NCBI GenBank assembly: GCA_000953695.1
Contig: LN554847.1
Location: 248,001 to 312,000, forward strand
DNA from: Aliivibrio wodanis
GTDB taxonomy: Bacteria; Pseudomonadota; Gammaproteobacteria; Enterobacterales; Vibrionaceae
DNA: 64,000 bases
Reading direction: 5' to 3'
The notes beneath the pieces are model-generated. The model had not been told where the DNA came from, made no database searches, and saw only the letters and a program-made list of their open reading frames with translations. The position numbers and the translations under genes are program-made. Shown in pieces: positions 364 to 59,973 of this stretch (its first letter is position 1; each line of letters begins with the position of its first letter).

Positions 364-1887
364 TTACTCTGCATCACTCATTTCAACGAGCCACGGCATA
401 AGATCCGACATATCATCAACTGGATCACGTTTAGGTAATTCCGTAAATAGATACTGGAAGTAATAATACGGGTTAATGTCATTGGCGCGGCACGTCATTA
501 CCAAGCTATACAAGTTAGCACTGGCCTTCGCTCCATCAACAGACGTTGAGAACATCCAGTTTTTTCTACCTGTGGTAAACGGCCTAATGTCTCTTTCTGT
601 GACATTATTATCGATGCTGATATCACCATCCTCAAGATAGGTGAGTAATTTAGGCCATTGCTTTTGAGTGTAGGCGATAGCTTTACCTAATGCCCCTTTG
701 GGTAAGACATTTTGAACATCAAGCCACGCTTTAAATTCACTCAATATTGGCTCAGCTTCCTGTTTTCTTATCTTCTGCCGTTCATTTGCGGATAATCCCT
801 TTGCCTTTCTTTCTACGCCGTAAAGTTTGGCGATGAAGTTGAGGGCTTTTTCAGGTTTTCCCGCTTTTTTAGAGGGTGACGCTTTTTGTGCATCGGTGAA
901 CTTTCTACGAGCATGCGCCATACATGCTGCTTGTGTCACTGCATCTAATGTGTCGTATACGCTGTAGCCATCAGAGAGTAAGTACCCTGAGTAATCACCT
1001 AAAAAGTCTTTTGCACACGTTGCTGCACGGCTTGGGTGATAATCATAGATAACAACAGGGGTTTTAATGAACTCACCACTACGGTAAACCCACATATAAG
1101 ATTTGGTTTGCGCTTTTCTATCTTCTTCGCGTAGCACTTGTACTGTGGTTTCATCTGCGCAGATAAGCTTTTCATTAAGCAGCCTTGATTTCATCTCATC
1201 AATGACTGGTTTCACTTTATTACCCAACTGAACACACCAATTAGCAAGCGTCGCTCGGCTTATATCAATATCAGACCGATTTAGGATATCTACTTGGCGA
1301 TACAGTGGCAGTGCATCTACGTATTTTGCTGTGACTACCGCCGCGAAAGCTCCTGCGCTTCCCATGCTTTTGGGGATCATACTAGCGGGCTTTGGTGCGG
1401 TGATAATTTTGGATTGGGTTTGCGTTTTTTCACATTGGCGACAAGCGTATTTAGTGCGTTCGTGGCGAATGACAGTGACCTTTTGAGGAATAATTTTAAG
1501 CTCTTCTGAGGTTTCAACGCCACATTCATGCAATGGTTCATCACAACATTCACAATAAGGTGCATTGAGTTCATGCTTGTGTATCTCACGCTCAAGCTCT
1601 TTTGGTAGAGGCTTGCGACCTGTTTTTTTCTTCTCATCATTCGATTTAGGGAGCGAGTTTTGCTGCTCAGCTTCATTGAAAGTACCTTTTGGTACTTTTT
1701 CACTTTGCGATGAGAAGCGCTTGGATTTATTTAGGTTTAATTGCTCAACCAAGAGTGCAACTTGAGTTTTTAATTCAGCGACTTCTTCTTGCTTGGCAAC
1801 AAGCAGCTTCTCTTTGGCTTCATTTTGATTATGAAGCTCAAGTAGCATCGCTTTTAGTTGCTCAATATCATTAGGAAGATCGGTCAT
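364..1887 (-). CDS. tnpC: IS66 family transposase TnpC
   Basis: This is the 507-residue DDE transposase that cuts and joins the element ends. Features in order are an N-terminal coiled coil (about residues 5-55), a basic linker, a zinc-binding block with paired cysteines (YCECCDEPLHECG and YACRQCE, about 110-155), and the catalytic core. The core has Asp in ICADETTVQVLRE, Asp in LLSDGYSVYD and Glu in NNVTERDIRPF near residue 433. The C-terminal FQYLFTELPK segment is typical of IS66 proteins. Length is normal for the family and no frameshift is visible. It lies 85 bases downstream of tnpB. Confidence 0.95.
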   Translation of the reverse strand: MTDLPNDIEQLKAMLLELHNQNEAKEKLLVAKQEEVAELKTQVALLVEQLNLNKSKRFSSQSEKVPKGTFNEAEQQNSLPKSNDEKKKTGRKPLPKELEREIHKHELNAPYCECCDEPLHECGVETSEELKIIPQKVTVIRHERTKYACRQCEKTQTQSKIITAPKPASMIPKSMGSAGAFAAVVTAKYVDALPLYRQVDILNRSDIDISRATLANWCVQLGNKVKPVIDEMKSRLLNEKLICADETTVQVLREEDRKAQTKSYMWVYRSGEFIKTPVVIYDYHPSRAATCAKDFLGDYSGYLLSDGYSVYDTLDAVTQAACMAHARRKFTDAQKASPSKKAGKPEKALNFIAKLYGVERKAKGLSANERQKIRKQEAEPILSEFKAWLDVQNVLPKGALGKAIAYTQKQWPKLLTYLEDGDISIDNNVTERDIRPFTTGRKNWMFSTSVDGAKASANLYSLVMTCRANDINPYYYFQYLFTELPKRDPVDDMSDLMPWLVEMSDAE

Positions 1888-1972
1888 GCTTTAGCTCAAG
1901 GTTGTTTAATTACCCTAAGTGTGACATCGAAAAAGGATCGTTCAAGTCCAATTTGATGATCATTATCAGCGA

Positions 1973-2317
1973 TCACACTTCTAGGTTAAATAACGGCTTA
2001 TGAGCTTTAGCATGATCTAAAGTCAGTCCAGATAAAAGCCAGTTGAGTTGTTGTCTGCTAATGTGGAGCGCACCATCAATATTGGGAGTTGGCCATTTGA
2101 ACGTCCCTTTTTCTAAGCGACGATAATAAAGCCAAAAACCATTGGTATCCCAAAACAAGATCTTGAGTTTATCTCGATTGCGGTTACAAAAAATAAACCA
2201 GGCTTCACTGAATGGGTCCATTTCCAGCGTTTCGGCGACAATGAGTGATAAGCCATCAATGGATTTTCTCATGTCGGTGACGCCAACGACGAGGTAAACC
2301 TTTCCTGACTGTATCAT
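1973..2317 (-). CDS. tnpB: IS66 accessory protein TnpB
   Basis: A 114-residue protein of the IS66 Orf2 family, required together with TnpA and TnpC for transposition of this family; its biochemical role is not settled. Diagnostic segments are YLVVGVTDMRKSIDGLS near the N-terminus, FIFCNRNRDKLKILFWD in the middle and GFWLYYRRLEKG. Its start overlaps the end of tnpA by four bases (ATGA), so translation is probably coupled. Confidence 0.95.
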   Translation of the reverse strand: MIQSGKVYLVVGVTDMRKSIDGLSLIVAETLEMDPFSEAWFIFCNRNRDKLKILFWDTNGFWLYYRRLEKGTFKWPTPNIDGALHISRQQLNWLLSGLTLDHAKAHKPLFNLEV

Positions 2318-2613
2318 TGCAATGCATCAACCCAATGTTTTATTTGTTTGGAATTAAGGTTTGCTGGTAACTCGGCACGAAGGCCATTATTACATGTCAG
2401 CACCACAATATTTGACGGCTCTTGTGTTGGCTCTGTCACGATAATGGGGTGAATTTTTGTTGTGACTTCTAACTCGCTGAGCTTCTTTGACCAGTAATAA
2501 AGGGTTTGGTAGCTTATTTCATTATCAATACAAAATTGCTTGATAGATAGGTTACTCTCTTTCTGTTGATCTAAAATATTAGCCCAATGGTCGCGCTTAC
2601 TTTGTTGATTCAT
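2314..2613 (-). CDS. tnpA: IS66 accessory protein TnpA (helix-turn-helix)
   Basis: A 99-residue protein starting at ATG 2613, chosen because GGAGG precedes it at good spacing; an upstream in-frame ATG at 2649 has no such site and lies near the element end. The N-terminal half, with NLSIKQFCIDNEISYQTLYYW, is a helix-turn-helix that most likely binds the element ends. The C-terminal half ends LPANLNSKQIKHWVDAL. It is the first gene of the element's transcript. Confidence 0.9.
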   Translation of the reverse strand: MNQQSKRDHWANILDQQKESNLSIKQFCIDNEISYQTLYYWSKKLSELEVTTKIHPIIVTEPTQEPSNIVVLTCNNGLRAELPANLNSKQIKHWVDALQ

Positions 2614-2667
2614 AATACCTCCGATTAAAAAGATACTATGGCAAAGCATGCTTAATATTGATATGTG

Positions 2668-3155: not shown

Positions 3156-5015
3156 TTATCTGTTTATGGTAATAGCCGCCTCAAGACTTTCACTTAACTC
3201 GTTTTCTTTATGGTAAGTGGTTAAAAGATTGTGAGTTGCCCTTGTCATTCCCACATATAGGCGACGAATATCTTCTGATCTATCAGAGCTTTTTTTGGGA
3301 ATATTAGAAGCATTTAGAATCACAACCGTCTTAAATTCTAGCCCTTTACTACTTGGAATAGGCAGAACGTTAACAACATTTTTGTTCGGATTGTATTGTT
3401 TTTTATATTCTGATTTGGCCAGTAAGATATGAGGGATTTCTTTTGATTTTAGTGCTTCAGCGACTTTGGTTCCAATATGTTTACACGGATAGATTATCGC
3501 AATATCGCTCCATGAATAACCATTTTTCTTCCAATGAACTAAACATTTTATCGCGTATTCTACTTCTTGTTCTATTGTAGAAAACTTTTTAACGACAGGG
3601 TGCGTACCCGTAATTCCAGCTGATTCTGGATGAATTAATGGGATTTCTTTAGCGTCTGAATTTTCAAAATATTGTTTAGCGAACTGATAAGAAAAAGACA
3701 GGATCTCTCTTGTATTACGATAGTTTAAACGTAATACAGTTGTTCGCCCCTGAGCTTGAATACCAACACTCGCCAAACTAAAATCTAAGTTATTCTTCTT
3801 TTTATAGATTGACTGAGCATCATCATAAAGCAGTAATAGAGAGTTAGTATCTGGATCGATCATTTGAGTAATTAATGTCAGCCATTCAGCTTCAAAATCA
3901 TGGCCTTCATCAATTAATAATGCACCGTATTGTCCTTTTGGAATCTCCCCTTTTTCCACACCATTAATAACGGTTTCTACTTGTCGCTCCCAGTAAGGCG
4001 CTTCACCTTTTATTACATCTAAATGATAGGTTTTAATTTGTTGTCCGCACCAATCGTGAAAATGATAAACCTGAACTTGTCCTGAAATACCTTTATCATC
4101 AATAAAACTGCGTAACCTTGCAGCTAGCGTAATATTAAAACAGAGAACTAGAATTGGTTTTTGTAGCTGTTCGGCTAAATGTAAACAGCGATAACCTAGG
4201 ATGAGTGTTTTTCCAGAGCCTGCTACACCATGGATTACACGATGTCCGTCACCTAAACTTCGAGCTAATTGCTCCTGTTGAATATCCATGATTTTTATAA
4301 TGTCAGGGATATGGGCATTGGTATTTACTGACTCGTCGTCATTATCTAAAGGTAATAGAGTTTGTTGTTCAGAGGTTGAAATACGAATTTCAGGGAAAAG
4401 GTGCCAACGAATACGATCAATTTGAGGTAATGTTAATTTGTTTCCAAACTGATAGTTAAACATATGCCATAGCTTAGATTGAAAACGCTCAGGATCTATT
4501 GTGCTTACCATTTCATCTTTACAGATAACCAAATGGTGAGGGAGTATTGAGTCTTGTGCCTCTAATGGAATCGCTCTGTCTAATTGCATTCGAGTAATAT
4601 TGGTGAGTACCACACCATAACCGTAAGGAAGACATAAGTTTCCTTTGTATTTCCCTTCTTGGTTAATGAGTAATTTATCACGTTTAAGTTTATCAATTAC
4701 TTGGTAGCTGCATTGACGAACTTGCTCAATAGGATTACTGGTTGTTTCTATTCCTTTAGGGGTCAGTAATTCAACACGGGCGGCATCAATATTTTTGATG
4801 GTATCAAGTTTCCAGTCTTTCACTTCAAGAAATAATAACCCACGAGCAGGATGCAAAATTATAAAGTCTGGATAGCGACGTAAACGGCCTACAGGAATGT
4901 CATACCAACATATATAATCATCTTCTAATAAGCTCTCTAGGCGCTGTGCAAAGCGTCTTTCACCTGATGTCATTTTTGATAAGCAGGTGTTTAATGTTGG
5001 TATTAACTCAGCCAT
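3156..5015 (-). CDS. NERD-domain superfamily 1 (UvrD/Rep-like) helicase
   Basis: A 619-residue protein. Residues about 15-130 form a NERD domain (nuclease-related, restriction-endonuclease-like fold) with SGERRFAQRLESL, YPDFIILHPARGLLFLEVK and a conserved E-x-K (LEVKDWK). A superfamily 1 motor follows: Walker A HGVAGSGKTLIL near residue 265, Walker B LLIDEGHDFEAEW near 365, motif IV-like LRLNYRNTREI, and motifs V/VI SSKGLEFKTVVIL and RLYVGMTRATHNL near the C-terminus. ATP-driven DNA unwinding with a possible nuclease is the family expectation; the DNA substrate is unknown. It diverges from two HNH endonuclease genes across a 222-bp gap, which suggests a defence or restriction role, but this is inference. 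Confidence 0.85.
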   Translation of the reverse strand: MAELIPTLNTCLSKMTSGERRFAQRLESLLEDDYICWYDIPVGRLRRYPDFIILHPARGLLFLEVKDWKLDTIKNIDAARVELLTPKGIETTSNPIEQVRQCSYQVIDKLKRDKLLINQEGKYKGNLCLPYGYGVVLTNITRMQLDRAIPLEAQDSILPHHLVICKDEMVSTIDPERFQSKLWHMFNYQFGNKLTLPQIDRIRWHLFPEIRISTSEQQTLLPLDNDDESVNTNAHIPDIIKIMDIQQEQLARSLGDGHRVIHGVAGSGKTLILGYRCLHLAEQLQKPILVLCFNITLAARLRSFIDDKGISGQVQVYHFHDWCGQQIKTYHLDVIKGEAPYWERQVETVINGVEKGEIPKGQYGALLIDEGHDFEAEWLTLITQMIDPDTNSLLLLYDDAQSIYKKKNNLDFSLASVGIQAQGRTTVLRLNYRNTREILSFSYQFAKQYFENSDAKEIPLIHPESAGITGTHPVVKKFSTIEQEVEYAIKCLVHWKKNGYSWSDIAIIYPCKHIGTKVAEALKSKEIPHILLAKSEYKKQYNPNKNVVNVLPIPSSKGLEFKTVVILNASNIPKKSSDRSEDIRRLYVGMTRATHNLLTTYHKENELSESLEAAITINR

Positions 5016-5237
5016 GTACTACTCGGAACAAGAATATTATCCGAATTATAGTTTAATATTCGATTAAAAAAAGTGATGAATAACTAAATAAAGTAACATT
5101 CTGATTTAGTGATATTTTCCATGTTTTTCCATGTTTATTTACGATAAAATCTAGTCATTATTAATGAGTTTTTAGAATGTATAGTATTACTAATCTTATG
5201 CTTTTATTCTAACTTAAATCTATTTATAGGATGAAGT
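5016..5237. promoter_or_regulatory. Divergent intergenic region between helicase and HNH gene
   Basis: This very AT-rich gap must hold promoters for both directions. A short tandem repeat, CCATGTTTTT followed by CCATGTTTAT at about 5120-5139, could be a regulator site but is unproven. The HNH gene is preceded by AGGATGAAGT, a reasonable ribosome site. Confidence 0.4.
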
Positions 5238-6365
5238 ATGTCTGTTGATTATTATCTAGACAAGTTCCGTAATTTAAACATGAATAGTAATAAGGGGAAG
5301 AAAAGCCCCCATAAAGTATGCATGTTACTTACTGTTATGGATTTAATACAAGCAGGATACATTTATGAGAATAAGATTAAACTCGATGTGACTTTGAAAG
5401 AGCGTTTCACTTATTTTTTTAATGAGCGTAAGCAAGGTCAGGATAGAGATACCCCAGAAAATCCTTTTTATCATTTAAAGACTGAAGGTTTCTGGCATCT
5501 AAATTATCAGGAAGGAATTGACGAATCCCTTGTCAAAGGCTATTCAAATAAAGCCATTAATTATGCTTATTTGGATGAGGAGTTGTTTGATTATTTAAAA
5601 AGTCCAATAGTGGTTAATAGTCTTAAAGATGCGTTAGTAGAAAGTTTATCAGACTTAACCGATCTTTATATTCAATGGCTTATTGATATTGGTAAGTCAG
5701 AAAGCACAGCTAAAAAATACTCTCAAGCAATTCGAGGCTCTATTTCTAATTGGATGGTACAAGAGAACCTTATAGATACGCCATTAACAGAAGTGAAGTC
5801 TTTTCGAAAGTTTTGTCGTCTTTCAGAAAGTGCTCATTCTCTTGAGCAGTTCAAACAATGTAATGCTAGAGGAAACAACATGTATAGTGCTGCATTAAAC
5901 TCATATAAACATTTTCTTTCTGATTTATCTCAAATAGATGTAAAAGCTGATATTCAAGACATTTTTCAAGATAAAAAATTAAGCCAAACTGAAAAGTCGA
6001 TAATGATTAATACCAGAATAGGACAGGGAACATTTAGAAAGCAGCTTATAGAGATGTGGAAGGGATGCTCGGTAACAGGGTATAAAAATACACAGATGCT
6101 AATTGCTTCACATATAAAACCTTGGCGAGATGCTAACAATGATGAAAGATTAGATAAATTTAATGGTCTATTATTACTTGCCAATTTAGATAGAGCATTT
6201 GATCTTGGGTTTATATCTTTTGATAATTCAGGACAATTAATGGTATCTAAGCAGCTAGAAAAACCAGAGGTTCTAGGCATTAGAGATGGAATGAGTGTGC
6301 ATATAAATAGAGAGCATAGTAAATATTTAAATCACCATCGGGCTATTTTGTTTAAAGGTCGATAA
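5238..6365 (+). CDS. HNH_2-type endonuclease with N-terminal recognition-like domain
   Basis: A 375-residue protein. The C-terminal third is an HNH_2 domain: CSVTGYKN, then ASHIKPWRDANNDERLDKFN, then GLLLLANLDRAFDLGFISFD (about residues 262-325), with the expected His, Asn and Asp residues. The N-terminal part contains KSPHKVCMLLTVMDLI, which resembles the PHKP-LLLL segment of N-terminal domains in HNH restriction enzymes, including ScoMcrA-type sulfur-binding domains; this match is from memory and weak. The middle (about 130-240) is helical, with STAKKYSQAIRGSISNW and a YSAALNSYKHFL helix often seen next to such nucleases. It is likely a restriction-type nuclease and probably shares a transcript with the next gene 60 bases on. 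Confidence 0.8.
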   Translation: MSVDYYLDKFRNLNMNSNKGKKSPHKVCMLLTVMDLIQAGYIYENKIKLDVTLKERFTYFFNERKQGQDRDTPENPFYHLKTEGFWHLNYQEGIDESLVKGYSNKAINYAYLDEELFDYLKSPIVVNSLKDALVESLSDLTDLYIQWLIDIGKSESTAKKYSQAIRGSISNWMVQENLIDTPLTEVKSFRKFCRLSESAHSLEQFKQCNARGNNMYSAALNSYKHFLSDLSQIDVKADIQDIFQDKKLSQTEKSIMINTRIGQGTFRKQLIEMWKGCSVTGYKNTQMLIASHIKPWRDANNDERLDKFNGLLLLANLDRAFDLGFISFDNSGQLMVSKQLEKPEVLGIRDGMSVHINREHSKYLNHHRAILFKGR

Positions 6366-6425
6366 TATTAATCATCCCTTTAAACCGAAATTACCATAAG
6401 GCAAACAAGGCAGTACACAGCAGTC

Positions 6426-8126
6426 ATGAAAAATATTCAATTTTATAATCAACATTCAGAAGAACTACTTCAAAATTACACATCAGTAACGTTTGAGAAA
6501 GTTCACGCCAGTTGGAAGCTATTTTGGCCACTTTCTGGTGAAAAAGTTTTGGATGTGGGTGCAGGTGTTGGTCGAGATGCCAAATGGTTTTTAGATCAAA
6601 AGTGTACGGTTATTGCTTTAGAACCTGCAAAGGAAATGCGAGATTTAGGCAAAAAACACACTGGCAAGCAAGTGCAATGGTTAGATGATACTTTACCTGA
6701 ATTGAGTCACACTATCGGATTAGGGATGCGCTTTGATGTAATTTTGGTTAGTGCTGTTTGGATGCACATTCCACCTAGTTCCCGTGCTCGTGCTTTTCGA
6801 AAGCTTTCTAATCTTCTTGCTCCAAATGGGCGTTTGGTTATCACTTTACGTCATGGTGATTTCACTGATGGTAGAAGTTCATACTTATGTTCAACTGATG
6901 AATTAGCTCAATTTTCAAAAGATGCTTGTTTACATACTCGATTAGTTACTGAAGTTGAACCTGATGCATTAAAGCGTGGTGAGGTTCAATGGCAAACTGT
7001 GGTGATGAGTTTACCTGATGATGGTTTTGGTGATCTTAATAAAGTTCGTCGTATCATTGTTAATGACAGCAAAAGCTCAACCTATAAATTAGCACTATTA
7101 CGTGTGTTATTGCGTATTGCAGATGCTCATTCTGGTTGTGTTATGGATCGCACTGATGGTGAAGTTTCAATTCCATTAGGGTTAGTCGCTCTGTATTGGA
7201 TTAAAGCGTATAAACGGTTAATTGATGTCGGAAATATCCAACAAAACAGTAATACCAAAAAAGGCCTAGCGTTTATCACTGAAGATGGATGGGAGAAATT
7301 GACTCATTTATCGGCTGATGATTTAGCTATTGGCGCTGTATTTTGTAATGAAGATGCCAAAGCCTTACAAAAAGCGATGCAAGCGACGATAAAAACAATG
7401 AAAGATGGGCCTATTAAGTTTATTTATTCAGGATCTTTAAAAGATAATAATCAAGAGTTTTCTACAGTAGCTCCTTCTAAAAGGCGTAAAGTAGAATCAA
7501 GTATTGTGCTCGATTCTGATTTTTTTGAGAGCTTTGGTTCGTTTGTATTAAAGCTAAATCTTTGGGAGTGTTTCCGTCTTTATTATTCGTGGATTGAGCC
7601 ATTAGTCGTGAACCAATGGGTTTCTGAAATGCAGCGATTTGAGGCGAACAGAGAGAATAATATAACATTACAAACGTATCATGATTGTTTAGTTTGGATA
7701 GATAAAAAGCATGATACCAATAGAGTACGCGCTAAAGTCGAGCTGCTGAGAAGTAAAAATCAAGCTATTCACTGTGTTTGGAGCCATCACAAGTTGAAAG
7801 GTGAGTATCATGTCGACCACTGTTTGCCTTTTGCTCATTGGCCGAATAATGATCATTGGAATTTATTACCGACGTGTAGCAAATCAAATTTAGAGAAGCG
7901 AGATCGTGTTCCTTCTTTAGCAAGATTAGACAAGGCCAAACCTGCGATTTTGGAGTGGTGGAAACAAGCGTGGGATGAGTCTAGTGAGCAACAACGGTTC
8001 TTTAATGAAGCTGCTCTTTCATTACCAAATATTCCTCCTCAATGCCGAGATTTTGAAGAGGTGTTTGATGCGATGGGGTTTCAAATTAAAGGGGTACAAA
8101 CTCGCTTACTTGTTAGAGAGTGGTAA
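6426..8126 (+). CDS. SAM-dependent methyltransferase fused to an HNH endonuclease
   Basis: A 566-residue fusion. Residues about 1-190 are a class I methyltransferase: SAM-binding VLDVGAGVGRDAKWF (about 38-52), acidic motif VIALEP, and motif IV/V region VILVSAVWMHIPP and GRLVITLRHGDF. The catalytic DPPY/NPPY of DNA amino-methyltransferases is absent, so it looks like a small-molecule or protein methyltransferase fold. The central part has SSTYKLALLRVLL and VSIPLGLVALYWIKAY, a domain I cannot name. The C-terminal HNH motif is EYHVDHCLPFAHWPNNDHWN followed by LLPTCSKSNLEKR (about 455-500). The natural start is ATG 6426 although its ribosome site is weak. Whether the methyl group acts on DNA, on a nucleotide or on a partner is unknown. 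It lies 60 bases after another HNH gene. Confidence 0.8.
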   Translation: MKNIQFYNQHSEELLQNYTSVTFEKVHASWKLFWPLSGEKVLDVGAGVGRDAKWFLDQKCTVIALEPAKEMRDLGKKHTGKQVQWLDDTLPELSHTIGLGMRFDVILVSAVWMHIPPSSRARAFRKLSNLLAPNGRLVITLRHGDFTDGRSSYLCSTDELAQFSKDACLHTRLVTEVEPDALKRGEVQWQTVVMSLPDDGFGDLNKVRRIIVNDSKSSTYKLALLRVLLRIADAHSGCVMDRTDGEVSIPLGLVALYWIKAYKRLIDVGNIQQNSNTKKGLAFITEDGWEKLTHLSADDLAIGAVFCNEDAKALQKAMQATIKTMKDGPIKFIYSGSLKDNNQEFSTVAPSKRRKVESSIVLDSDFFESFGSFVLKLNLWECFRLYYSWIEPLVVNQWVSEMQRFEANRENNITLQTYHDCLVWIDKKHDTNRVRAKVELLRSKNQAIHCVWSHHKLKGEYHVDHCLPFAHWPNNDHWNLLPTCSKSNLEKRDRVPSLARLDKAKPAILEWWKQAWDESSEQQRFFNEAALSLPNIPPQCRDFEEVFDAMGFQIKGVQTRLLVREW

Positions 8127-8132
8127 TCTTTT

Positions 8133-8154
8133 GTGGGAGTTTCTTTACTCCCAC
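8133..8154. terminator. Bidirectional hairpin between convergent genes
   Basis: GTGGGAGT and ACTCCCAC form an 8-bp stem with a 6-base loop just after the methyltransferase-HNH stop. The stop codon of the convergent hydrolase gene (8145-8147) spans the loop and second arm of this hairpin. Confidence 0.6.
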
Positions 8155-9191
8155 TCTTTAATTCTACGTTTTTGTTTCTTTTCAATAATATTACTCTTGC
8201 TTCTTAAGCTTAGCTCACCATTGTTACGCTCTCTTGTTGGTATCGCTTGTCTATCAATATCGCCTTGTAGGGTGTGCGCCAAATCTTCGGCAAAGTGGCT
8301 GCAATGAAAGTGCCATGAGTGACTCCAATTACCAATGGTTTGGTCTTTGTGTGGCTCGGTAAGTTGCTGCCAGTGATCGCCACAGTGTACATTTACTACA
8401 TGGCTTGGGGCATCGTCAGGTAATCCAACTCGTCCGCATCGTGGGGCAAGCCCTGCACGTTTTATATTTGAGATCTTTAATGCATTATCAAAAGGGCTTT
8501 GATAGTTAGTAATACGGGTTGATTGAGCAAACAGCGGAGCCGATTTTCGGTCATCTTGGCTTAATGACTGTCTCGCAATATCTCCTCCAATAAAACATAC
8601 TTGGCTTACGTTCCAGTGAATACGTTGCAAAGTTCGGTTTTTACTCGCTTGATAAAATGCTTCACGAATAACGTAAGCGCCTGTCGAGTGCCCAAGTAAA
8701 TGGATATCAATATCACACTGGTTTTCATCTTCTTTTAATTGGTTAATCGCCAATGGTGTAATACCAGCCGTGACCAGTTTTAATGCGCTTTGGTAGGCAT
8801 CTATTCTGTCTTCTAAATAATTAAGAGTGTAAGTAGCACAAGGCCAATCAAAGCTAACAATGGTGCCTGTAAATCCATGTTGCTTTAAGTGTTTATCGAG
8901 TAATTTATGACGCTGTATCACCTCTTCTTGGCTATTGTTGTAACCATGAGCAAAGAAAAGAATGTTACCTGTTTTAAATTGAGCTAATGGGTGATGGCTA
9001 GGGTGAAGCCCTGTAGTGGCTTCTTGAGTTAACTGAGTTATCCACTTTTCAGCGTCTACATGGTGAAGGTTATGGTCTGGTACTGTCGCTTCATCTGGCA
9101 AGATAAGGTAATGCGCATCACCGGGTTCATTGCTGTATTGAGACTTTGCTGTACCACTTGTGAGTTGACGTGTGCTTAATATGAATATCAC
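8145..9191 (-). CDS. DUF900-type alpha/beta hydrolase
   Basis: A 348-residue protein with an alpha/beta-hydrolase fold of the DUF900 family. The oxyanion-side strand ILFFAHGYNNSQEEV (about residues 75-90), the segment IVSFDWPCATYTLNYLEDR and the nucleophile elbow HLLGHSTGAYVIREAF with Ser in GHSTG (about residue 170) are all present. A late His in the HSWHFHCSHFAEDLA stretch could complete the triad. The start is a GTG after GGGA. No signal peptide is visible, so it is probably cytoplasmic. The substrate is unknown. It converges on the methyltransferase-HNH gene and shares its terminator hairpin. Confidence 0.75.
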   Translation of the reverse strand: MIFILSTRQLTSGTAKSQYSNEPGDAHYLILPDEATVPDHNLHHVDAEKWITQLTQEATTGLHPSHHPLAQFKTGNILFFAHGYNNSQEEVIQRHKLLDKHLKQHGFTGTIVSFDWPCATYTLNYLEDRIDAYQSALKLVTAGITPLAINQLKEDENQCDIDIHLLGHSTGAYVIREAFYQASKNRTLQRIHWNVSQVCFIGGDIARQSLSQDDRKSAPLFAQSTRITNYQSPFDNALKISNIKRAGLAPRCGRVGLPDDAPSHVVNVHCGDHWQQLTEPHKDQTIGNWSHSWHFHCSHFAEDLAHTLQGDIDRQAIPTRERNNGELSLRSKSNIIEKKQKRRIKEWE

Positions 9192-9746: not shown

Positions 9747-10700
9747 ATGTCTCACTATTCACTTATCGATATTCCTTTTAACCTCAGACACACCTGTTGG
9801 TTCTGCGGTGAGCCTTCGTTCGATCTCCTCTCTTTTCCTAAATCATCACATCAAGTAAGTAAAATTGTCCATCAACCGATTGAATTGCCTGCATGTAAAG
9901 AGTGTTTGGTGCTGCCATCGGCTGGGGTATCTGAATCTATCTGGTCGTTTCGTGATCAAATCAAACATGCATTAATGAATAAGTACGCTAAGCATTTGGG
10001 TATTGGCTTGCAGTGGACGAAAGAAGAGTTAGAAGAGTCTGAGTTTGATGGCGCTATTTTGGAAGGGTTTGGTAAAAGTGCCTGGCCAATGTATGAAATA
10101 GCGAAGGCACGGGTGGAATATGTTGGTTGGGATATCTCGGTCGATAACGAGCCATTAGAGGGTTACGATGAAAGTTATGGCTATGAATTCAATGGTGTAC
10201 GTTATTTGAGTATTCAAGCTTGTATTGAGTATCATGTAAAAGCCTTGTCGTTGGATTTGGTGTTATTAGAGACGGTTGTAGAAATTGTTGGATCTGAGCG
10301 TTTTGCTTATGCATTACGTATTGCAACGTTAAATCGTGAAGTCTCTTATCGAGATCGTCTGGCGATTATTGATGAGATAAAAAACCAAGAGCAAGATAAA
10401 GACGACCTTCGTGAGTTAAATGAGGCTGAAAAATCAAGTGTTATCCTTCCTCTTGTTACTGTTGTTATGAATGAGGCGATTGCTCAGCCAGAGGCTATCG
10501 AATGGGCTATTACACATTCATGCACTACATTAGAGATCTTAATTGAGCAAGAAGATGATTTTTTTGATGCATTTGAGCACTTGGGTGGGCCAACGGCATT
10601 TGCGCTGTTTGATGGTTTGCAATGGTATTTGGCGGCGCGTCGAGATAATACGTGGTGTGTAGAGAATGATCCTAATGATGAGTTTTGGCGTGAAGTTTAG
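9747..10700 (+). CDS. Conserved hypothetical protein with two CxxC pairs
   Basis: A 317-residue acidic, soluble protein that I do not recognise. Near the N-terminus it carries CWFCGEP (about residues 18-24) and, after about 32 residues, CKEC, which together could bind one zinc ion, as in treble-clef or HNH-associated knuckles. The remainder is rich in Glu, Trp and aromatic residues, with helices such as YHVKALSLDLVLLETVVEIV. No signal peptide or membrane segment is seen. It is flanked by a small membrane-protein gene and a convergent lipoprotein gene. No function is offered. Confidence 0.65.
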   Translation: MSHYSLIDIPFNLRHTCWFCGEPSFDLLSFPKSSHQVSKIVHQPIELPACKECLVLPSAGVSESIWSFRDQIKHALMNKYAKHLGIGLQWTKEELEESEFDGAILEGFGKSAWPMYEIAKARVEYVGWDISVDNEPLEGYDESYGYEFNGVRYLSIQACIEYHVKALSLDLVLLETVVEIVGSERFAYALRIATLNREVSYRDRLAIIDEIKNQEQDKDDLRELNEAEKSSVILPLVTVVMNEAIAQPEAIEWAITHSCTTLEILIEQEDDFFDAFEHLGGPTAFALFDGLQWYLAARRDNTWCVENDPNDEFWREV

Positions 10701-12175: not shown

Positions 12176-13229
12176 CCTAGATCCCAAGAATAACCGACAC
12201 ACTTTGGTATAGATTAGAGAGTCAGTTGCCTATAAGCTTCAAGCTCTCACACAATCAACTAAGGTAACCACATGGGACACCAATATAAGCAACTGACACT
12301 AAGTGAAAGATACCAGATTGAAGCTTGGAATACACATAGTATTTCTGCTCGGGAAATAGGACAAAAATTAAAACGGAGCAATGGCTCCATTTCAAGGGAA
12401 TTACGACGCTGTCCTGTTGGAAGTTATTCTGCCGAGCAAGCGCATAAACATGCTTTTCAAAAAAGAACACTTTCAATTAAGCACACAAAGTGTGGCCAAA
12501 AGAATAAGAAAATAATTCAAATATACCTACAACTTGGTTGGAGCCCAGAGCAAATATCTGGACGAATGCATAAAGAAAAAATAGAAAATACAATATGTTG
12601 CAGTACTATTTACAATGTAGTTAAAAGAGAGCATTGGCAAAGAATGCTTGCTCGAAAAGGTAAAAAATACAAACAGCGTAAAGGTGTAGAAGCTGGAGCA
12701 AGACTAATTCCCAACCGCGCTGATATCTCTCTCCGGCCTGCTATTGTTGACGATAACTCAGAAATTGGCCACTGGGAAGGTGATACTGTTTATGGTCAAG
12801 ATGGGTATTTAGTCACTATGGTAGAGCGAGTATCTAAGCTATTAGTTACTTGCAAAGTACGTAGCAAGTCTAAAAAAGCAGTCACTCGTGGGATAAATCG
12901 CATGATGAAGCCCTTTAAAGAACTTTGCAAAACAATCACATTTGATAATGGCGGAGAGTTTGCGGGTCATGCTAAGATAGCTAAGCATCTGAACTGTGAC
13001 ATTTATTTTGCTAAACCTTACCATTCCTGGCAACGAGGTTTGAATGAAAATACCAATGGTTTACTAAGGCGTTTTTTCCCAAAGGGAATGGCCATTGGAG
13101 AACTTGCTGCAAAAGAGGTTAAACAGGCAGAGTTTTTGATTAATTCGAGACCTAGAAAGGCATTAAATTTTCTGAGTCCGAGTGAGTTTTTAAGCGGTAA
13201 GCGTGTGTCGGTTATTGTTACGATCTAGC
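12176..13229 (+). mobile_element. IS30-family insertion sequence, copy 1 (1054 bp)
   Basis: The ends are CCTAGATCCCAAGAATAACC on the left and, read inward from the right, GCTAGATCGTAACAATAACC, with ACCGACACAC shared by both inverted repeats. A 3-bp duplication ATA flanks it (12173-12175 and 13230-13232). The transposase stop codon lies within the right terminal repeat. Comparison with the copy at 36203-37256 gives the same length and the same boundary bases. It sits in the gap between the FrsA-like gene and the permease gene and breaks no obvious gene. Confidence 0.95.
12272..13228 (+). CDS. IS30 family transposase, copy 1
   Basis: A 318-residue DDE transposase. The N-terminal helix-turn-helix is [20 protein letters not shown] and on to [15 protein letters not shown] (about residues 8-50). 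The catalytic triad is visible as Asp in [10 protein letters not shown] (about 172), Asp in [12 protein letters not shown] (about 230) and Glu in [18 protein letters not shown] (about 264). Length and motif order are normal for IS30 transposases and nothing is broken. Start ATG 12272 follows AAGGTAACCAC. The protein is identical to that at 36204-37160. Confidence 0.95.
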   Translation: MGHQYKQLTLSERYQIEAWNTHSISAREIGQKLKRSNGSISRELRRCPVGSYSAEQAHKHAFQKRTLSIKHTKCGQKNKKIIQIYLQLGWSPEQISGRMHKEKIENTICCSTIYNVVKREHWQRMLARKGKKYKQRKGVEAGARLIPNRADISLRPAIVDDNSEIGHWEGDTVYGQDGYLVTMVERVSKLLVTCKVRSKSKKAVTRGINRMMKPFKELCKTITFDNGGEFAGHAKIAKHLNCDIYFAKPYHSWQRGLNENTNGLLRRFFPKGMAIGELAAKEVKQAEFLINSRPRKALNFLSPSEFLSGKRVSVIVTI

Positions 13230-17530: not shown

Positions 17531-17985
17531 AATGCTTACCTATCTTTAATTATTTTTAATCGGGCATGATATTTTAAGAAATAAATAACAAGCCGTTTTT
17601 TGTCTGGAAATGATCTTATTCCTAAGAGCTGCATGAGTAAAATGAATGCTTTTCATTTTTAAAATGCATTTTGTGCATATATTAAAAGGGGGATTTACTG
17701 TCTTAATTAACTGATTCATCTAATAATTACGTTGTTTTTATGTGAATTTATACCTTGCTTTGGTTTCATTTGGATAAATATATAGGCGATGTTTGTTTCA
17801 AATTTGTTGATTTATAAAATAAGTAATGGAGTTTTATGAATGGATGTATGAACAAATTGTAACGAGGTTTGTATGGCTATTTTGTTTTGTGATTTGACTT
17901 CCAATTAGTAATTATATCAGTCGTTTATATTCTTATTATCGACTAAGTTTTCGTGAGAAAAACAATAATACTCAAAGGAATAATT
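17531..17985. promoter_or_regulatory. Divergent control region between pflB and gbpA
   Basis: This 455-base, very AT-rich gap must carry promoters for both genes. A palindrome-like AAAATGCATTTTGTGCATAT lies at about 17657-17678. I could not find a clean FNR box (TTGAT-N4-ATCAA), which is often expected ahead of pfl genes. AAAGGAATAATT precedes the gbpA ATG. An earlier in-frame GTG at 17953 exists but would add residues before the signal peptide. Confidence 0.4.
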
Positions 17986-19461
17986 ATGAATAAATGCTCA
18001 ACAAAAACAATATTAGCATTGTCATTAATGGCGGCTAGTGCTGGTGTTTCTGCCCATGGTTATGTTTCTGAAAAAAATGGTGGCATTGCTGGATCTCGTG
18101 CGGCACTGTGTAAGTTCCTAACCTCTGATACTCAAGAAAAAAATACAAAATGTGGCTCTGTGCAATGGGAGCCTCAAAGTGTTGAAGGCCCTGAAGGTTT
18201 TCCTGAAAAAGGACCAGCAGATGGTCAAATCGCAGGAGCAGGCTTGATTCAGTTCTCTGAGCTAAATGAACAAACGTCTGATCGTTGGGTAAAGCGTCCA
18301 ATAACAGCAGGACAACAAACGTTTGAATGGACGTTTACGGCTAACCACGTGACAAGAGGGTGGAAGTACTACATGACAAAACAGAACTGGAATCAAAATT
18401 CAGTATTAACGCGTGACTCTTTTGATTTGACGCCGTTCTGTGAACTTGATTACAACATGGCAAAGCCGCCGCTATATCCACAAACATTCTCTCATGAGTG
18501 TGTGGTTCCTGAGCGTGAAGGCTATCAAGTGATCCTTGCGGTTTGGGATGTGGGCGATACCGCTGCGGCATTCTATAATGTAATTGATGTAAAATTTGAA
18601 GGTGACGGCGGTGTGGTTGACCCAACTTGGACTCAAGGTGGCCAAATTAACCCAACGCGTGATCTAAATGTGGGCGACCGTGTGTTTACTCGTGTATTTG
18701 ATGCATCTGGCGAAAACAATCGTTTATCGACAAGCGTAACGATTGAGAATGCTACTCAAGGCCAAGCAAATAACTGGACGCATGCATTAGCAACTAAGGT
18801 TAACCAAGAACACACGAATATGGGTGCTGGCCAGCTAAACGATAAAGGTGAATTTGTACCGGTATTTGGTTCAAACCCTGTGTACTTAAAAGCAGGCAGT
18901 GGCCTAAAGAGTGTTGAGATTGGTTACCAAATTGAAACGCCAGAGCCAACGTATGAGTTAGATATTCAAGGTCTAGAGTCTATGTATACCATTGGTGATA
19001 CAGCGACAGAATTGGATCTTAGCCTATATGCTGTGGGTGATATGAATGTAGAGCTAACGGTTTATAACCATGCAAAAGAAGCGTTATCGAACGCGGTTGT
19101 TGATTTAAAAGATGGTGATACTAAGTCAGTATTAATGACATTGTCTAAATCAGAAAAAGGGCATCATATGCTTGTTTCTCGCATCAAAAATACAGAGGGT
19201 GAGTTAATTGAACAGACCACGTCTGATTTTCATTTGATGGAAGAACAAACACCACCACCAGCAGGTGATTATGATTTCGTGTTCCCTGAGAATGTGAAAA
19301 ATTACACAGCAGGAACAAAAGTGTTAGCGGAAGATGGCGCTATCTACCAGTGTAAACCATTCCCTTATTCTGGTTACTGTTCACAATGGTCAGAAGTAGC
19401 AACTCAATATTCTCCAGCGGTGGGTTCTCACTGGACAATGGCATGGGATAAAGTGAAGTAA
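17986..19461 (+). CDS. gbpA: GbpA-like chitin/GlcNAc-binding protein with AA10 LPMO domain
   Basis: A 491-residue secreted protein. The signal peptide ends after GVSA so that the mature chain starts with His ([10 protein letters not shown]), the first ligand of the copper histidine brace. The second His is in [13 protein letters not shown] (about residue 120) and the axial Phe in [14 protein letters not shown]10 enzymes cleave crystalline chitin oxidatively. Two middle domains of the GbpA type (about 220-420) follow, including [22 protein letters not shown]-terminal chitin-binding module rich in Cys, Tyr and Trp ([17 protein letters not shown]) ends the protein. In Vibrio, GbpA promotes attachment to chitin and mucin. 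Start ATG 17986 was chosen for its AAGGA site. Confidence 0.92.
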
Positions 19462-34670: not shown

Positions 34671-36202
34671 TTTACATAGAGAAAGCATAGGCCCTCAAAT
34701 TACCCACCAAACATCACATTCTCGTATCTTTATTATCACTTCTCTCTAATATAAAATATGTGACATTTAATATTTTTTATAATATTTTATTTATAAACCG
34801 CTATTAAATTAGAGCGGATGGGTATTTAATTTATCCAATAATTATTTTATAAATGGTCAATTACAACATATCAAGGTTATATAAATCATGAGTTATAAAG
34901 ATCTAGCAGTACGAAAAAAAATTGCCGTTGTATTTTCTACAATTGGATTAGTAATGATAGCGTTTGCTATTTTTTTATTACAAGAATTAAATAAAGTAGA
35001 AGCAGAGGTCATTAACTTTACAGATTCTACTGTTCCAAGTGTGCTAGCTGTTGAAGATATTTATTTTGATATGAATGCGTACCGCCGAAATCAATATGCA
35101 GCATTAAGTTATCAAGAAAAAGATTTACCCCGTTTGTTTTCTACTCTTTCTGAACAAGGCAATTCGATTAAAGCAGAATTAGCCGCTTATGAAGCGACAG
35201 TTGTTAGTAATGAAGAACGTCGAATATTTGATCGAGTAGCAAATGGATGGTCTGAATACCAACGTGTTTTAAAAGGGTTTACTCAAAAAATACAAAATGG
35301 TGAAAAAAATATAGCGATAATGGATCTTGTGAATGCTTTAAGCCAATTTGAAGAGGTTGGTGCCGCGATGGACGTACTAGCAGAGGCCAATGTTGCTTTT
35401 GTAACGAATAATCGTACAACAATTATGGCTAGTGTAAATAACGTGACTATGGCGACTAAGGTGTCATTCACTGCTCTTATTGGTTTTATGATATTTATTA
35501 CTTTCTTTTTAGCCCGTCAAATCTGTCGTCCATTAAATCTAGTTGTTGAACAATCTAAAGCAATTGCTTCAGGCGACTTAACTTTCCGTCTTCAACGTGA
35601 AGAAATTGGTAACGATGAATTAGGTGAGTTAGCGGATACTAACATTGAAATGCAAAATCAGCTGCGTATGTTGATAGAAGACACTATTTCAGCAGTAACT
35701 CAACTCTCTGCTGCTGTAGAAGAGATGAGCGCCATCTCTGAGCAATCATCACGCGGTATGCAGCAGCAACAGTCTGATATTACGACGGTAGCCGCAGCGA
35801 TGGAAGAGATGAAGGCAACGGTAGCTGAAGTAGCAAATAACACTGAAACAGCCTCTACATCAGCGCTAGAAGCGTCTGAAGAAGCGAAACAAGGCAATCA
35901 AGATGTTCAATCGAATATTGATCAGATTCAAATTGTTTCTCGTGATATCGAACAAGCCGGTGAATTGGTTGAAGAGTTAGAGCGTGAATCAAATAATATT
36001 AGTCTTGTAGTTGAAGTTATTCGTGGTATTGCTGATCAAACGAACTTGTTAGCACTGAATGCAGCAATTGAAGCAGCACGAGCAGGTGAACAAGGTCGTG
36101 GTTTTGCTGTTGTTGCTGACGAGGTTCGCTCTTTAGCGGGTCGAACTCAGTCATCAACCAGTGAAATTGTTGAGATCATCGAGAAGCTACAAGCAAGTGC
36201 AA

Positions 36203-37256
36203 GCTAGATCGTAACAATAACCGACACACGCTTACCGCTTAAAAACTCACTCGGACTCAGAAAATTTAATGCCTTTCTAGGTCTCGAATTAATCAAAAAC
36301 TCTGCCTGTTTAACCTCTTTTGCAGCAAGTTCTCCAATGGCCATTCCCTTTGGGAAAAAACGCCTTAGTAAACCATTGGTATTTTCATTCAAACCTCGTT
36401 GCCAGGAATGGTAAGGTTTAGCAAAATAAATGTCACAGTTCAGATGCTTAGCTATCTTAGCATGACCCGCAAACTCTCCGCCATTATCAAATGTGATTGT
36501 TTTGCAAAGTTCTTTAAAGGGCTTCATCATGCGATTTATCCCACGAGTGACTGCTTTTTTAGACTTGCTACGTACTTTGCAAGTAACTAATAGCTTAGAT
36601 ACTCGCTCTACCATAGTGACTAAATACCCATCTTGACCATAAACAGTATCACCTTCCCAGTGGCCAATTTCTGAGTTATCGTCAACAATAGCAGGCCGGA
36701 GAGAGATATCAGCGCGGTTGGGAATTAGTCTTGCTCCAGCTTCTACACCTTTACGCTGTTTGTATTTTTTACCTTTTCGAGCAAGCATTCTTTGCCAATG
36801 CTCTCTTTTAACTACATTGTAAATAGTACTGCAACATATTGTATTTTCTATTTTTTCTTTATGCATTCGTCCAGATATTTGCTCTGGGCTCCAACCAAGT
36901 TGTAGGTATATTTGAATTATTTTCTTATTCTTTTGGCCACACTTTGTGTGCTTAATTGAAAGTGTTCTTTTTTGAAAAGCATGTTTATGCGCTTGCTCGG
37001 CAGAATAACTTCCAACAGGACAGCGTCGTAATTCCCTTGAAATGGAGCCATTGCTCCGTTTTAATTTTTGTCCTATTTCCCGAGCAGAAATACTATGTGT
37101 ATTCCAAGCTTCAATCTGGTATCTTTCACTTAGTGTCAGTTGCTTATATTGGTGTCCCATGTGGTTACCTTAGTTGATTGTGTGAGAGCTTGAAGCTTAT
37201 AGGCAACTGACTCTCTAATCTATACCAAAGTGTGTCGGTTATTCTTGGGATCTAGG
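36203..37256 (-). mobile_element. IS30-family insertion sequence, copy 2 (1054 bp)
   Basis: This has the same length and terminal bases as the copy at 12176-13229, in opposite orientation. The flanking 3-bp duplication is CAA (36200-36202 and 37257-37259). The uninterrupted paralogue downstream confirms the target as GCAAGTGC(A/G)A-CACATGC. The insertion is probably recent because the two element copies appear identical where I compared them. Confidence 0.95.
36204..37160 (-). CDS. IS30 family transposase, copy 2
   Basis: A 318-residue DDE transposase identical to that at 12272-13228: helix-turn-helix near the N-terminus, catalytic Asp in [10 protein letters not shown], Asp in [10 protein letters not shown] and Glu in [11 protein letters not shown]. 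It is intact and transcribed against the interrupted chemoreceptor gene. Its TAG stop lies in the terminal inverted repeat. Confidence 0.95.
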
Positions 37257-37641: not shown

Positions 37642-38087
37642 AGTGCTCAAATAAAATAAACAGCATGGTAAACTCATTGTTAATTTGTATTTTTAACTCC
37701 AATAATAAATTTATTTTAAATATTTTTTTGCATTAATAACTATCAGATTCTATCGATATAGGAAGTATTTTTTTATTATTGAGCTATTTAGAAAAAAGAT
37801 AGGTTACTTTTTAAAGTTAAACAGTTGATTGGTTAACATAAAAGATCAGGCTATTAGCATAAATTACTGAATTTAATTAAATCCTCAAGTCTAAAGTCGT
37901 TTTTTATCACGAATGGTCAATGGTGTTAACATATTGATGGTTTATAAAAATGTGTGACTTTTGGTTTAAATTATTTTACTTTCTCGACGATTGGCCGTTA
38001 CCTAAGGCTAGGAGATAAAATCATCTCTAATAATATCGTTATGCTCATGGAGTGAGTTACAAAAATAATCTAAAGGTTGTTAAAAAC
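37642..38087. promoter_or_regulatory. Upstream region of the second chemoreceptor gene
   Basis: About 445 bases of AT-rich sequence without a gene, holding the promoter of the next chemoreceptor gene. An AAAGGTTGTTAAAAAC stretch ahead of ATG 38088 resembles the AAGGTTATATAAATC before the first chemoreceptor, so the leader was duplicated with the gene. I see no clear operator. Confidence 0.4.
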
Positions 38088-39719
38088 ATGAGTTATAAAA
38101 ATCTAGTAGTACGTAATAAAATTGCCGTTGTATTTGCGGCAATTTCTCTAGTAATGATAGCGTTTGCTATTTTCCTATTACAAGAACTAAATAAAGTAGA
38201 ATCAGAAGTTATTAATTTTGCTGACTCTACAGTCCCAAGTGTTATCTCTGTTGAAAATTTATATTTTGAAATGTCAGTATTACGCCGTAGTCAATATGCG
38301 TCATTAACTTACTCTGATTATAATGATGGATTAAAAGCATTGTTTAATCGTCAAACGATGACAGAGCAAAAAATTAAAAATATGCTTGAGAGTTATGATA
38401 GAACGGTAGCTGGTGGCAATGAGCGTAGAGTATTCGATACTGTATTGCGCTCGTGGAAAAACTATTCGAGTATTTTATCTGATTTTAATCAACTAGTGAA
38501 AAGCCGTAACTTAGATAAAGCACATAAAGAATTAGTGACGTCTTTAGATGAGTTTGAGGCAGTAGGTGCAGCAATGGATGCTCTAGTTGAGATCAACTTA
38601 GGCTTTATTGCTAATAACCGAACCGAAATAATAAGAAGTGTAGATAGTGTAACGACAGCAACTAAAGTGTCTTTTTCTGCATTAATACTATTTATGATTG
38701 CCATTACTTTTTTCTTGGCTCGCCAAATTTGTCGCCCTTTGAATTTAGTGGTTGAGCAGTCTAAAGCGATTGCTGCGGGTGATTTAACTTTCTGTCTTCA
38801 ACGTGATGAAATTGGTAATGATGAGCTAGGTGAATTAGCAGATACTAACATTGAAATGCAAAATCAACTTCGAGTATTGATCGAAGATACGATTTCTGCG
38901 GTTACTCAATTATCTGCTGCTGTAGAAGAAATGAGCGCGATTTCAGAGCAATCTGCGCGTGGTATGCAACAGCAACAATCTGACATTACAACGGTAGCTG
39001 CTGCAATGGAAGAGATGAAAGCAACTGTCGCGGAAGTAGCAAACAATACTGAAACTGCCTCTACATCAGCTCTAGAAGCATCTGAAGAAGCAAAGCAAGG
39101 TAACCAAGATGTTCAGTCTAACATTGAACAAATTCAAATCGTGTCTCGTGATATTGAGCAAGCAGGTGAGCTAGTTGAAGAGCTAGAGCGTGAGTCAAAT
39201 AACATCAGTGTTGTGGTTGAAGTTATCCGCGGTATTGCTGATCAAACTAACTTATTAGCATTGAATGCAGCAATTGAAGCGGCGCGTGCTGGTGAGCAAG
39301 GTCGTGGTTTTGCAGTTGTTGCTGATGAAGTTCGTTCTCTTGCGGGTCGCACTCAATCATCAACCACTGAAATTGTTGAAATTATCGAGAAACTTCAAGC
39401 AAGTGCGACACATGCAAAAGCGGCAACAGATCAAAGTTGTTCTAAAATCCGTATCTGTGTAGAGCAAAGCGTTCAAACTGGTAATTCAATCCAAATGATT
39501 GAAGAGACCATGATGAAAGTAACAGATACGAGTATTCAAATTGCGAGTGCATGTAGCCAACAAGATTCAGTAACCGAAGAGCTTGGTCGTAACATTCAAA
39601 GCATGAGTTTATCAGCGAGTGAAGTGGCATTAGGAGCAGAGCAAACCGCACAATCGAGTGTTGAATTAGCTCAACTTGCAACAACACTACAAGCTTCTTT
39701 ATCGCGTTTTAAAGTGTAA
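38088..39719 (+). CDS. Methyl-accepting chemotaxis protein (intact paralogue)
   Basis: A 543-residue chemoreceptor. The first membrane helix ([20 protein letters not shown]) is followed by a periplasmic four-helix sensor (about 35-190), a second membrane helix ([20 protein letters not shown]), a HAMP domain ([20 protein letters not shown]) and a signalling domain with the tip [23 protein letters not shown] 38088 is used, not the GTG at 38052, because it aligns with the paralogue's MSYK start. It is a tandem duplicate of the gene broken by IS30, nearly identical in the signalling half and more diverged in the sensor. Ligand unknown. Confidence 0.9.
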
Positions 39720-56770: not shown

Positions 56771-56782
56771 TCAAGAAAATTA

Positions 56783-56812
56783 AAATAAGGCTAGTATTTA
56801 CTAGCCTTATTT
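56783..56812 (+). terminator. Strong terminator after the first ExeM gene
   Basis: AAATAAGGCTAGTA and TACTAGCCTTATTT are perfectly complementary around TT, though the real loop is larger. The second ExeM gene therefore probably has its own promoter in the following 165 bases. Confidence 0.85.
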
Positions 56813-56978
56813 CTTTCTAAAACTCCCTCTTAATATATTTCTTTCTATTTCGTGTATGCGATGCTTATTTCTGCACGTCAGAGATCTCATTAATAGAGTG
56901 AAATATAATTTTCATCATATCGTTCTACATCTACTGCACAACGTCAGTTGATTTGATTGGTATTATTAAGGTTTATTT

Positions 56979-59918: not shown

Positions 59919-59949
59919 TCTTCAACTTTCTTATAGGAGAGAGGCCTAA

Positions 59950-59973
59950 ATGCCTCTAATCAAAAAGTTATGA
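59950..59973 (+). CDS. Seven-codon leader peptide overlapping the endonuclease start
   Basis: A strong ribosome site, AGGAGAGAGG, stands before ATG 59950, not before the endonuclease ATG at 59970. The short frame encodes MPLIKKL and stops in TGA, which overlaps the endonuclease ATG as ATGA. A small hairpin, AGAGGC-CTAAAT-GCCTCT, spans the same place. Translation of the nuclease is thus probably coupled to this leader. No protein evidence exists. Confidence 0.45.
   Translation: MPLIKKL

Follow-up and report, generated by a model that had tools for sequence, protein, structure and literature searches.

A defence-type exchange site in Aliivibrio wodanis with candidate cassettes for an SBD-HNH nuclease, a methyltransferase-HNH fusion and a NERD-UvrD helicase-nuclease

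Three adjacent genes on the chromosome of Aliivibrio wodanis raise the question of whether they form one anti-phage system or have been gathered at a place where defence genes are exchanged. The window is the 64,000-nucleotide stretch at positions 248,001 to 312,000 of contig LN554847.1; coordinates below refer to it, and G and L numbers label the genomes and loci compared, the host being G000. All three open reading frames (ORFs) are intact: a NERD-UvrD helicase-nuclease of 619 amino acids (aa) at 3156-5015 on the minus strand, a nuclease of 375 aa combining a sulfur-binding domain (SBD) with an HNH domain (SBD-HNH) at 5238-6365 on the plus strand, and a methyltransferase-HNH fusion of 566 aa (MTHNH) at 6426-8126 on the plus strand. 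The initial annotation had described a helicase with a nuclease-like domain, a restriction-type HNH enzyme and a methyltransferase joined to an HNH nuclease, next to a transposon, and Pfam and PADLOC bear out these assignments. The 619-aa protein matches NERD (2e-11), UvrD_C (4e-22) and UvrD-helicase (1e-8); the second protein matches HNH_2 (2e-10) and gains an N-terminal sulfur-binding domain that the annotation had left unnamed; the third matches methyltransferase families down to 2e-11 and HNH_4 (1.4e-5); an IS66 transposase lies at 364-1887. We propose, with a probability of about 0.5, that the locus is an exchange site holding three cassettes: a phosphorothioate-sensing SBD-HNH nuclease, MTHNH as an enzyme resembling a restriction-modification system, and a separate NERD-UvrD gene.

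The NERD-UvrD gene diverges from the other two, with 222 bp between 3156-5015 and 5238-6365, and the three genes are therefore not one operon; the SBD-HNH and MTHNH genes are co-oriented with a gap of 60 bp. The closest named relatives at the locus, from a search of GTDB contigs with the fused protein, are A. sifiae, A. fischeri and an Aliivibrio sp. Fourteen Aliivibrio genomes were searched, of which 13 carry the marker W9747 and the other is a lower-quality assembly without it. Restriction-type genes occupy the site in 13/13, as does a gene of MT_I, the methyltransferase domain family of MTHNH, or of MT_II, a second methyltransferase family. NERD, SBD-HNH and MTHNH stand together in 3/13 (G000, G010 and G011), NERD, SBD-HNH and MT_II in 3/13 (one with a broken NERD gene), and SBD-HNH with MT_II in 3/13. 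A PLD-helicase accompanies MTHNH in 2/13, once in two pieces; an LlaJI-type AAA/nuclease pair, MzaB-like and SNF2-helicase genes accompany MTHNH in 1/13; and DndBCD, an HNH gene, MT_II and the Dnd-associated putative methyltransferase TIGR04096 occur in 1/13. The LlaJI-type pair is an AAA_5 protein with an RE_LlaJI nuclease at L003; at L260 only the AAA_5 protein was checked. DNA homology between the sites breaks at the cassette borders. In G012, 87% identity to the window extends across NERD and SBD-HNH; a differing part follows, with a convergent 194-aa MT_II methyltransferase in G012 and MTHNH in the window, and homology resumes at the end of the DUF900 gene. Defence-type genes are exchanged at this site in Aliivibrio. 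The earlier idea of a defence island thus holds for the site, with its nuclease and restriction-type genes in 13/13; the claim that the three genes make one system does not, as only 3/13 sites hold the full trio.

The product of 5238-6365 is an SBD-HNH nuclease. In a comparison with a profile built from 17 homologues, residues 1-139 (5238-5654, plus strand) match PDB 8h0l 'SBDHga1' at 8e-44, and residues 228-374 match PDB 6yex 'HNH endonuclease', which we take to be the EVE-HNH enzyme VcaM4I, at 7e-39. Alignment places a middle domain at residues 140-230 (5655-5927, plus strand), also present in short relatives that lack the SBD, and the HNH domain at residues 231-375 (5928-6362, plus strand), in which H292, N309 and N316 are invariant in 17/17. 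The sulfur pocket of ScoMcrA is formed by H116, R117 (K in most homologues), Y164, P165 and A168, with W175 in the core (excerpts of PMC6224610). By motif spacing, our mapping places these positions at H25, K26, N75, P76, H79 and W86 of SBD-HNH, the pocket residues being H25, K26 and P76; H25, K26, P76 and W86 are invariant in 17/17 homologues. Five SBD-HNH enzymes are reported to be active on phosphorothioated DNA, and EcoWI to restrict modified plasmid in vivo (excerpts of PMC7461809). By homology and the conserved pocket, the window protein probably cuts foreign phosphorothioated DNA. The host genome gives no DndC match and so shows no Dnd modification system by this marker; self-cutting by SBD-HNH is consequently not expected. 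Among 80 loci kept from viral contigs, no match spans the whole of SBD-HNH, most covering the HNH part.

The MTHNH protein consists of a class I methyltransferase domain (6426-7022, plus strand), a middle domain defined by alignment (7023-7625, plus strand) and an HNH_4 motif (7788-7913, plus strand) whose D464, H465, N479 and N488 are invariant in 36/36. It belongs to a METHYLTRANSFERASE-nuclease family with 53 related loci in GTDB contigs, ranging from Aliivibrio to a cyanobacterium; these were found with the fused protein as query and are biased to fusions, and one of them (L019) yielded no focal ORF. The family is widespread and apparently unnamed. Four of the 53 loci contain an SBD-HNH gene (L002, L008, L043 and L052). 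Matches of the methyltransferase domain are scattered over small-molecule, tRNA, tellurite and thiol methyltransferases, so that no substrate can be named, with a weak similarity to TehB/TPMT. In Escherichia phage phi458 (L336, 2917-3519), an MT_I relative of 36% identity adjoins the integrase together with a 194-aa hypothetical gene that has no Pfam or PADLOC match. Phage records number two, each with the methyltransferase part only, and in phi458 this part has no annotated HNH nuclease beside it.

How closely this methyltransferase is tied to nucleases is seen across genomes. The MT_I profile gives 61 matches in 57 of the 247 genomes of the order sample, 39 in frames of at least 529 aa and 22 in short frames; 20 of the 39 are confirmed to carry the HNH part (including L260) and the others are judged by frame length. 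At 29 of the 30 order-sample loci returned, MT_I adjoins an HNH nuclease or is joined to one: 19 fusions, seven beside SBD-HNH and three beside a separate HNH_4 gene; the thirtieth lies in a Dnd locus. The 22 short frames lie by SBD-HNH (7), HNH_4 (6), a PLD-SF2 helicase (3), in a Dnd locus (1), by MzaB-/MzaC-type genes (1), without a partner (3) or at the edge of the stretch (1). A pooled set of 96 distinct MT_I copies comprises 60 in-frame fusions to HNH and 36 stand-alone genes. Such a nuclease lies no more than 1.2 kb from 24 of the stand-alone genes, and two others have just Dnd genes at that distance; in the same loci, 24/490 control ORFs, taken 3-9 kb away, have such a nuclease close by. 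Seen from the other side, full-length SBD-HNH genes have an MT_I or MT_II neighbour in 13/15 genomes, a set not found via the methyltransferase and leaving out the host, G010, G011, L043 and L052: 6/6 Aliivibrio, 4/4 other genomes of the family and 3/3 of family f12, with G206 and G318 as exceptions. The upstream ORF at L132 is not a methyltransferase, and no partner count includes it. The genomes are related by descent, and none of these counts is made of independent observations.

PLD/SF2-helicase proteins occur near MT_I genes at L001 (6783-9980), L318, L322, L323 and L325; PADLOC mREase_IV matches the three that were scanned (L001, L323 and L325). At L259 (2-2464) three genes stand in a row: MT_I, an unfused HNH_4 gene and a short HNH_2 gene.

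The same counts bear on the explanation that a defence hotspot has gathered unrelated passengers, methyltransferase and nucleases having no joint function. The mixed contents of the site, which include the LlaJI-type pair, the MzaB-like protein, the PLD-helicase and the Dnd genes, are what such a hotspot would hold, and 10 of the 36 stand-alone methyltransferases lack both such a nuclease and Dnd genes within 1.2 kb. Of these ten, three lie where a contig or stretch ends, one of them next to an FtsK-type ATPase; the neighbours are a Lamassu LmuA-type gene in one case, MzaB/MzaC-type genes in another, and metabolic or housekeeping genes in five (L009, L047, L320, L324 and L327). Against it stand the in-frame fusion in 60/96 copies and the nearby nuclease in 24/36 of the others, compared with 24/490 for control ORFs, and we regard passengers as an unlikely explanation.

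The partner of the methyltransferase changes along the family tree. With the partner labelled as SBD-HNH, HNH_4, PLD-helicase, Dnd or none, parsimony on the tree of 96 domains gives 27 changes against a minimum of 5, a figure that counts 'no partner' as a state and comes from a tree with long branches and weak forks. Shuffled labels give a mean of 34.7 changes, and since the observed 27 is lower, partner labels are also clustered on the tree. The 'fused' state alone changes 15 times, 11 of them forced by well-supported branches. At the DNA level, G210 and G230 share the methyltransferase and upstream genes at 88-89% identity; the match stops 5-11 bp before the end of the methyltransferase gene, and past the break one goes on with SBD-HNH, the other with HNH_4. 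In G151 and G089 the methyltransferase region is 92% identical and the match stops 21-33 bp before the gene end, with only a 191-bp stretch of the next SBD-HNH gene matching.

Under the three-cassette reading, SBD-HNH would be a modification-dependent restriction nuclease, its SBD most likely recognising incoming phosphorothioated DNA, as homology and the conserved pocket suggest, and its nuclease cutting it. MTHNH would be a self-contained enzyme of methyltransferase and nuclease; the constancy of the non-canonical class I methyltransferase and the changing of the nuclease are seen in the genomes, and the chemistry is proposed. Most likely, the methyltransferase sets a mark with little sequence specificity, and the HNH domain joined to it cuts DNA that lacks or carries that mark. 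NERD-UvrD would be an independent helicase-nuclease that arrived at the site separately. The most economical reading of the methyltransferase is an enzyme of the restriction-modification kind whose mark is unusual or of low specificity.

Several observations weigh against this reading. The lid tyrosine of the sulfur pocket (Y164, position 75) is replaced by N, T or L in 17/17 homologues; the profile alignment also reads L at this position in SBDHga1. The NCBIfam model of phosphorothioate-dependent enzymes, NF045808, scores the protein at 60.7 against a cut-off of 180 bits, so that SBD-HNH is not filed under it. None of the nine order genomes with full-length SBD-HNH is among the 13/247 above the DndC cut-off; with 0.47 expected, this result is not significant and uninformative, and mutual exclusion of the two, considered as a candidate pattern, was rejected on that low expectation. 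On the side of MTHNH, neither a [DNS]PP[YFW] nor a PCQ-type motif, both marks of DNA methyltransferases, is found in any of 36 methyltransferase domains. The first of these motifs is given as such a mark in excerpts of PMC10853773. An SBD-like domain suspected by eye within MTHNH was discarded, the probability by hhalign being below 1%. The partnerless copies, and the five amid metabolic or housekeeping genes in particular, point the same way, as does the nearly unchanged methyltransferase adjoining different nucleases: with the nucleases swapped beside it, a methyltransferase that protects by matching their sequence is hard to reconcile.

A broader interpretation extends the three-cassette reading to a widespread unnamed defence family, in which the constant non-canonical class I methyltransferase would make or edit a shared mark that interchangeable partner nucleases read or avoid. 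The mark would possibly lie on the DNA backbone, phosphorothioate sulfur included, and new nucleases would be dropped in behind the methyltransferase, the partners being HNH_4 (fused or separate), SBD-HNH, the PLD-SF2 helicase and the Dnd-linked HNH. This proposal is tentative and, in our judgement, rather doubtful.

An ordinary fused restriction-modification enzyme of type IIG-like design, methylating a base in a fixed sequence, would account for methyltransferase, middle domain and nuclease in a single chain. It fits poorly with the missing [DNS]PP[YFW] and PCQ-type motifs (36/36), with best matches to small-molecule, tRNA and tellurite methyltransferases, and with the swapping of partners behind a constant methyltransferase, and is improbable.

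Alternatively, the methyltransferase would act on a sulfur-containing or otherwise modified group of DNA, DNA phosphorothioation being the common theme of its partners. These do include SBD nucleases and Dnd loci: MT_I or MT_II is found in the Dnd locus of 3/13 DndC-positive order genomes (G001, G144 and G119), where MT_II and an HNH gene precede the Dnd operon in G144 and an MT_I gene lies within the locus in G119, as it does in Mesorhizobium (L049). The weak TehB/TPMT similarity also agrees with this idea. However, in 10/13 DndC-positive loci the stretch read contains no methyltransferase of either family, S-methyltransferases resemble the domain no more closely than other class I enzymes do, and no SBD is detected in MTHNH; we consider this quite improbable.

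The NERD-UvrD gene is a separate defence-type gene, linked to SBD-HNH in some Vibrionaceae. Its product matches PADLOC C3a187 'NERD+UvrD' at 4e-170 across residues 1-613, nearly the full length. Among 22 aligned homologues, conservation reaches 95% or more at D50, E64, K66, residues 266-270 (the Walker A motif) and DEGH 369-372. Close relatives occur in 16/369 class-sample genomes, the host included. The neighbourhoods of 14 relatives besides the host were read (G517 is not in the set), with short flanks at L266 (3.2 kb in all) and L269 (0.9 kb on the left); overlapping ORFs are missed by the ORF caller where loci are GC-rich, and this set alone was also searched in six frames. An HNH_2-type gene lies within 3 kb in 1/14 (G462, a short HNH relative), MT_I or MT_II in 0/14. 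In the plasmid collection, neither the HNH nor the methyltransferase families occur near NERD-UvrD in the 4 records read of 21 found; on a Vibrio harveyi plasmid an annotated N-6 DNA methylase adjoins NERD-UvrD, and an annotated HNH endonuclease 5.5 kb away is unmatched by the profiles. Because NERD-UvrD in its relatives mostly stands without these families (13/14 class-level relatives, 4/4 plasmid records), it is treated as a separate gene; of the co-occurrence that the initial annotation had suggested checking, the HNH-methyltransferase linkage recurs and the helicase falls away. A single three-gene system, with the helicase unwinding, the two HNH proteins cutting and the methyltransferase protecting, would explain the synteny of the trio in three Aliivibrio genomes, the pairing of NERD with SBD-HNH in G058 (same family) and three other Aliivibrio (one with a broken NERD gene) and the short HNH relative in G462, yet it is highly improbable given the separate relatives just listed, the lack of NERD at the site in 3/9 Aliivibrio SBD-HNH carriers, its lack (at E 1e-60) in the genomes of 7 of the other 8 order-sample carriers, and its restriction to two trio relatives (L002 and L008) among the 53 fused-protein loci.

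If the coupling of methyltransferase and nuclease is functional, a methyltransferase of 57/247 order genomes would have a defence role beyond the reach of the usual protect-your-own-site model, because the nuclease partner is exchanged while the methyltransferase stays nearly constant. The locus also offers a concrete lead for asking whether phosphorothioated DNA is a substrate of enzymes other than the Dnd and Ssp machinery already known.

Around the three genes, the left flank (364-2649, minus strand) holds the IS66 transposase together with two small ORFs that extend to 2649 and that we take to be part of the IS66 element. On the right, a terminator-like hairpin 3' of MTHNH (8133-8154, plus strand) comes from a consensus scan only, and the DUF900 alpha/beta hydrolase (8145-9191, minus strand), present in 11/13, forms the edge of the exchange site and is probably outside the system. 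The 317-aa protein at 9747-10700 has no match in Pfam, PADLOC or NCBIfam; it is kept in 13/14 Aliivibrio genomes, and a relative lies beside a fused methyltransferase-HNH gene in G127. Elsewhere in the window, two IS30-family copies (12272-13228, plus strand, and 36204-37160, minus strand) have transposase ORFs identical over all 957 bases, which points to recent transposition. The second copy lies directly against the end of 34888-36207, a chemotaxis receptor gene with a truncated signalling domain; a longer paralogue is found at 38052-39719. A GbpA-like lytic polysaccharide mono-oxygenase with GbpA domains 2 and 3 is encoded at 17953-19461. Two large proteins are encoded in 53585-60854, one weakly matching endonuclease/exonuclease/phosphatase and the other carrying a lamin-tail domain; endonuclease I comes next, and the group resembles a cluster of secreted nucleases. 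An aerolysin-family protein (63021-63995, minus strand; Pfam 2.8e-70) lies at the window end.

Among known systems, the SBD-HNH phosphorothioate-dependent nucleases SprMcrA, EcoWI and ScoMcrA (the last with an extra SRA domain) share with the window protein the N-terminal SBD, the C-terminal HNH, the pocket H-K/R and P, and a host without a DndC match. The window protein differs in having N, T or L in place of the lid tyrosine and in a recurrent neighbouring methyltransferase gene, and may differ in a middle domain of about 90 residues between SBD and HNH; the word 'methyltransferase' occurs 0 times in PMC7461809. Dnd loci contain many nucleases, among them HNH proteins that carry SBD/wHTH and SRA domains, and have stand-alone NERD proteins at their edges (excerpts of PMC10853773). 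The HNH/HKD nucleases recruited there likewise vary beside a modification module, and an HNH and a methyltransferase gene occur in the Dnd loci of G001 and G144, with HNH pieces and the methyltransferase further along in G119. Here, unlike in those loci, what stays constant is a small class I methyltransferase rather than DndDE, and the same excerpts do not describe the methyltransferase-HNH pair. In the open PMC literature, no paper was found joining methyltransferase, HNH endonuclease, anti-phage and NERD domain, and none on the methyltransferase-HNH pair by name, on SBDHga or on MADS/MAD2. The likeness to MADS is confined to a mad2 match at positions 290-427 of 492, on the methyltransferase part; for Gabija, no GajA partner lies beside the UvrD helicase, whose neighbours are HNH and GNAT proteins, and GajB models match in part only. 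NERD-UvrD agrees with PADLOC C3a187 by its near full-length match and shows no decisive difference, the linkage to SBD-HNH in some Vibrionaceae being an addition. Type IIG-like enzymes combine methyltransferase and nuclease in one chain, as MTHNH does; unlike them, MTHNH lacks a DNA-methyltransferase motif, has HNH_4 at its C-terminus, and its methyltransferase also occurs with other nucleases. In conclusion, SBD-HNH and NERD-UvrD are ordinary, and the new variant is the methyltransferase-nuclease pairing.

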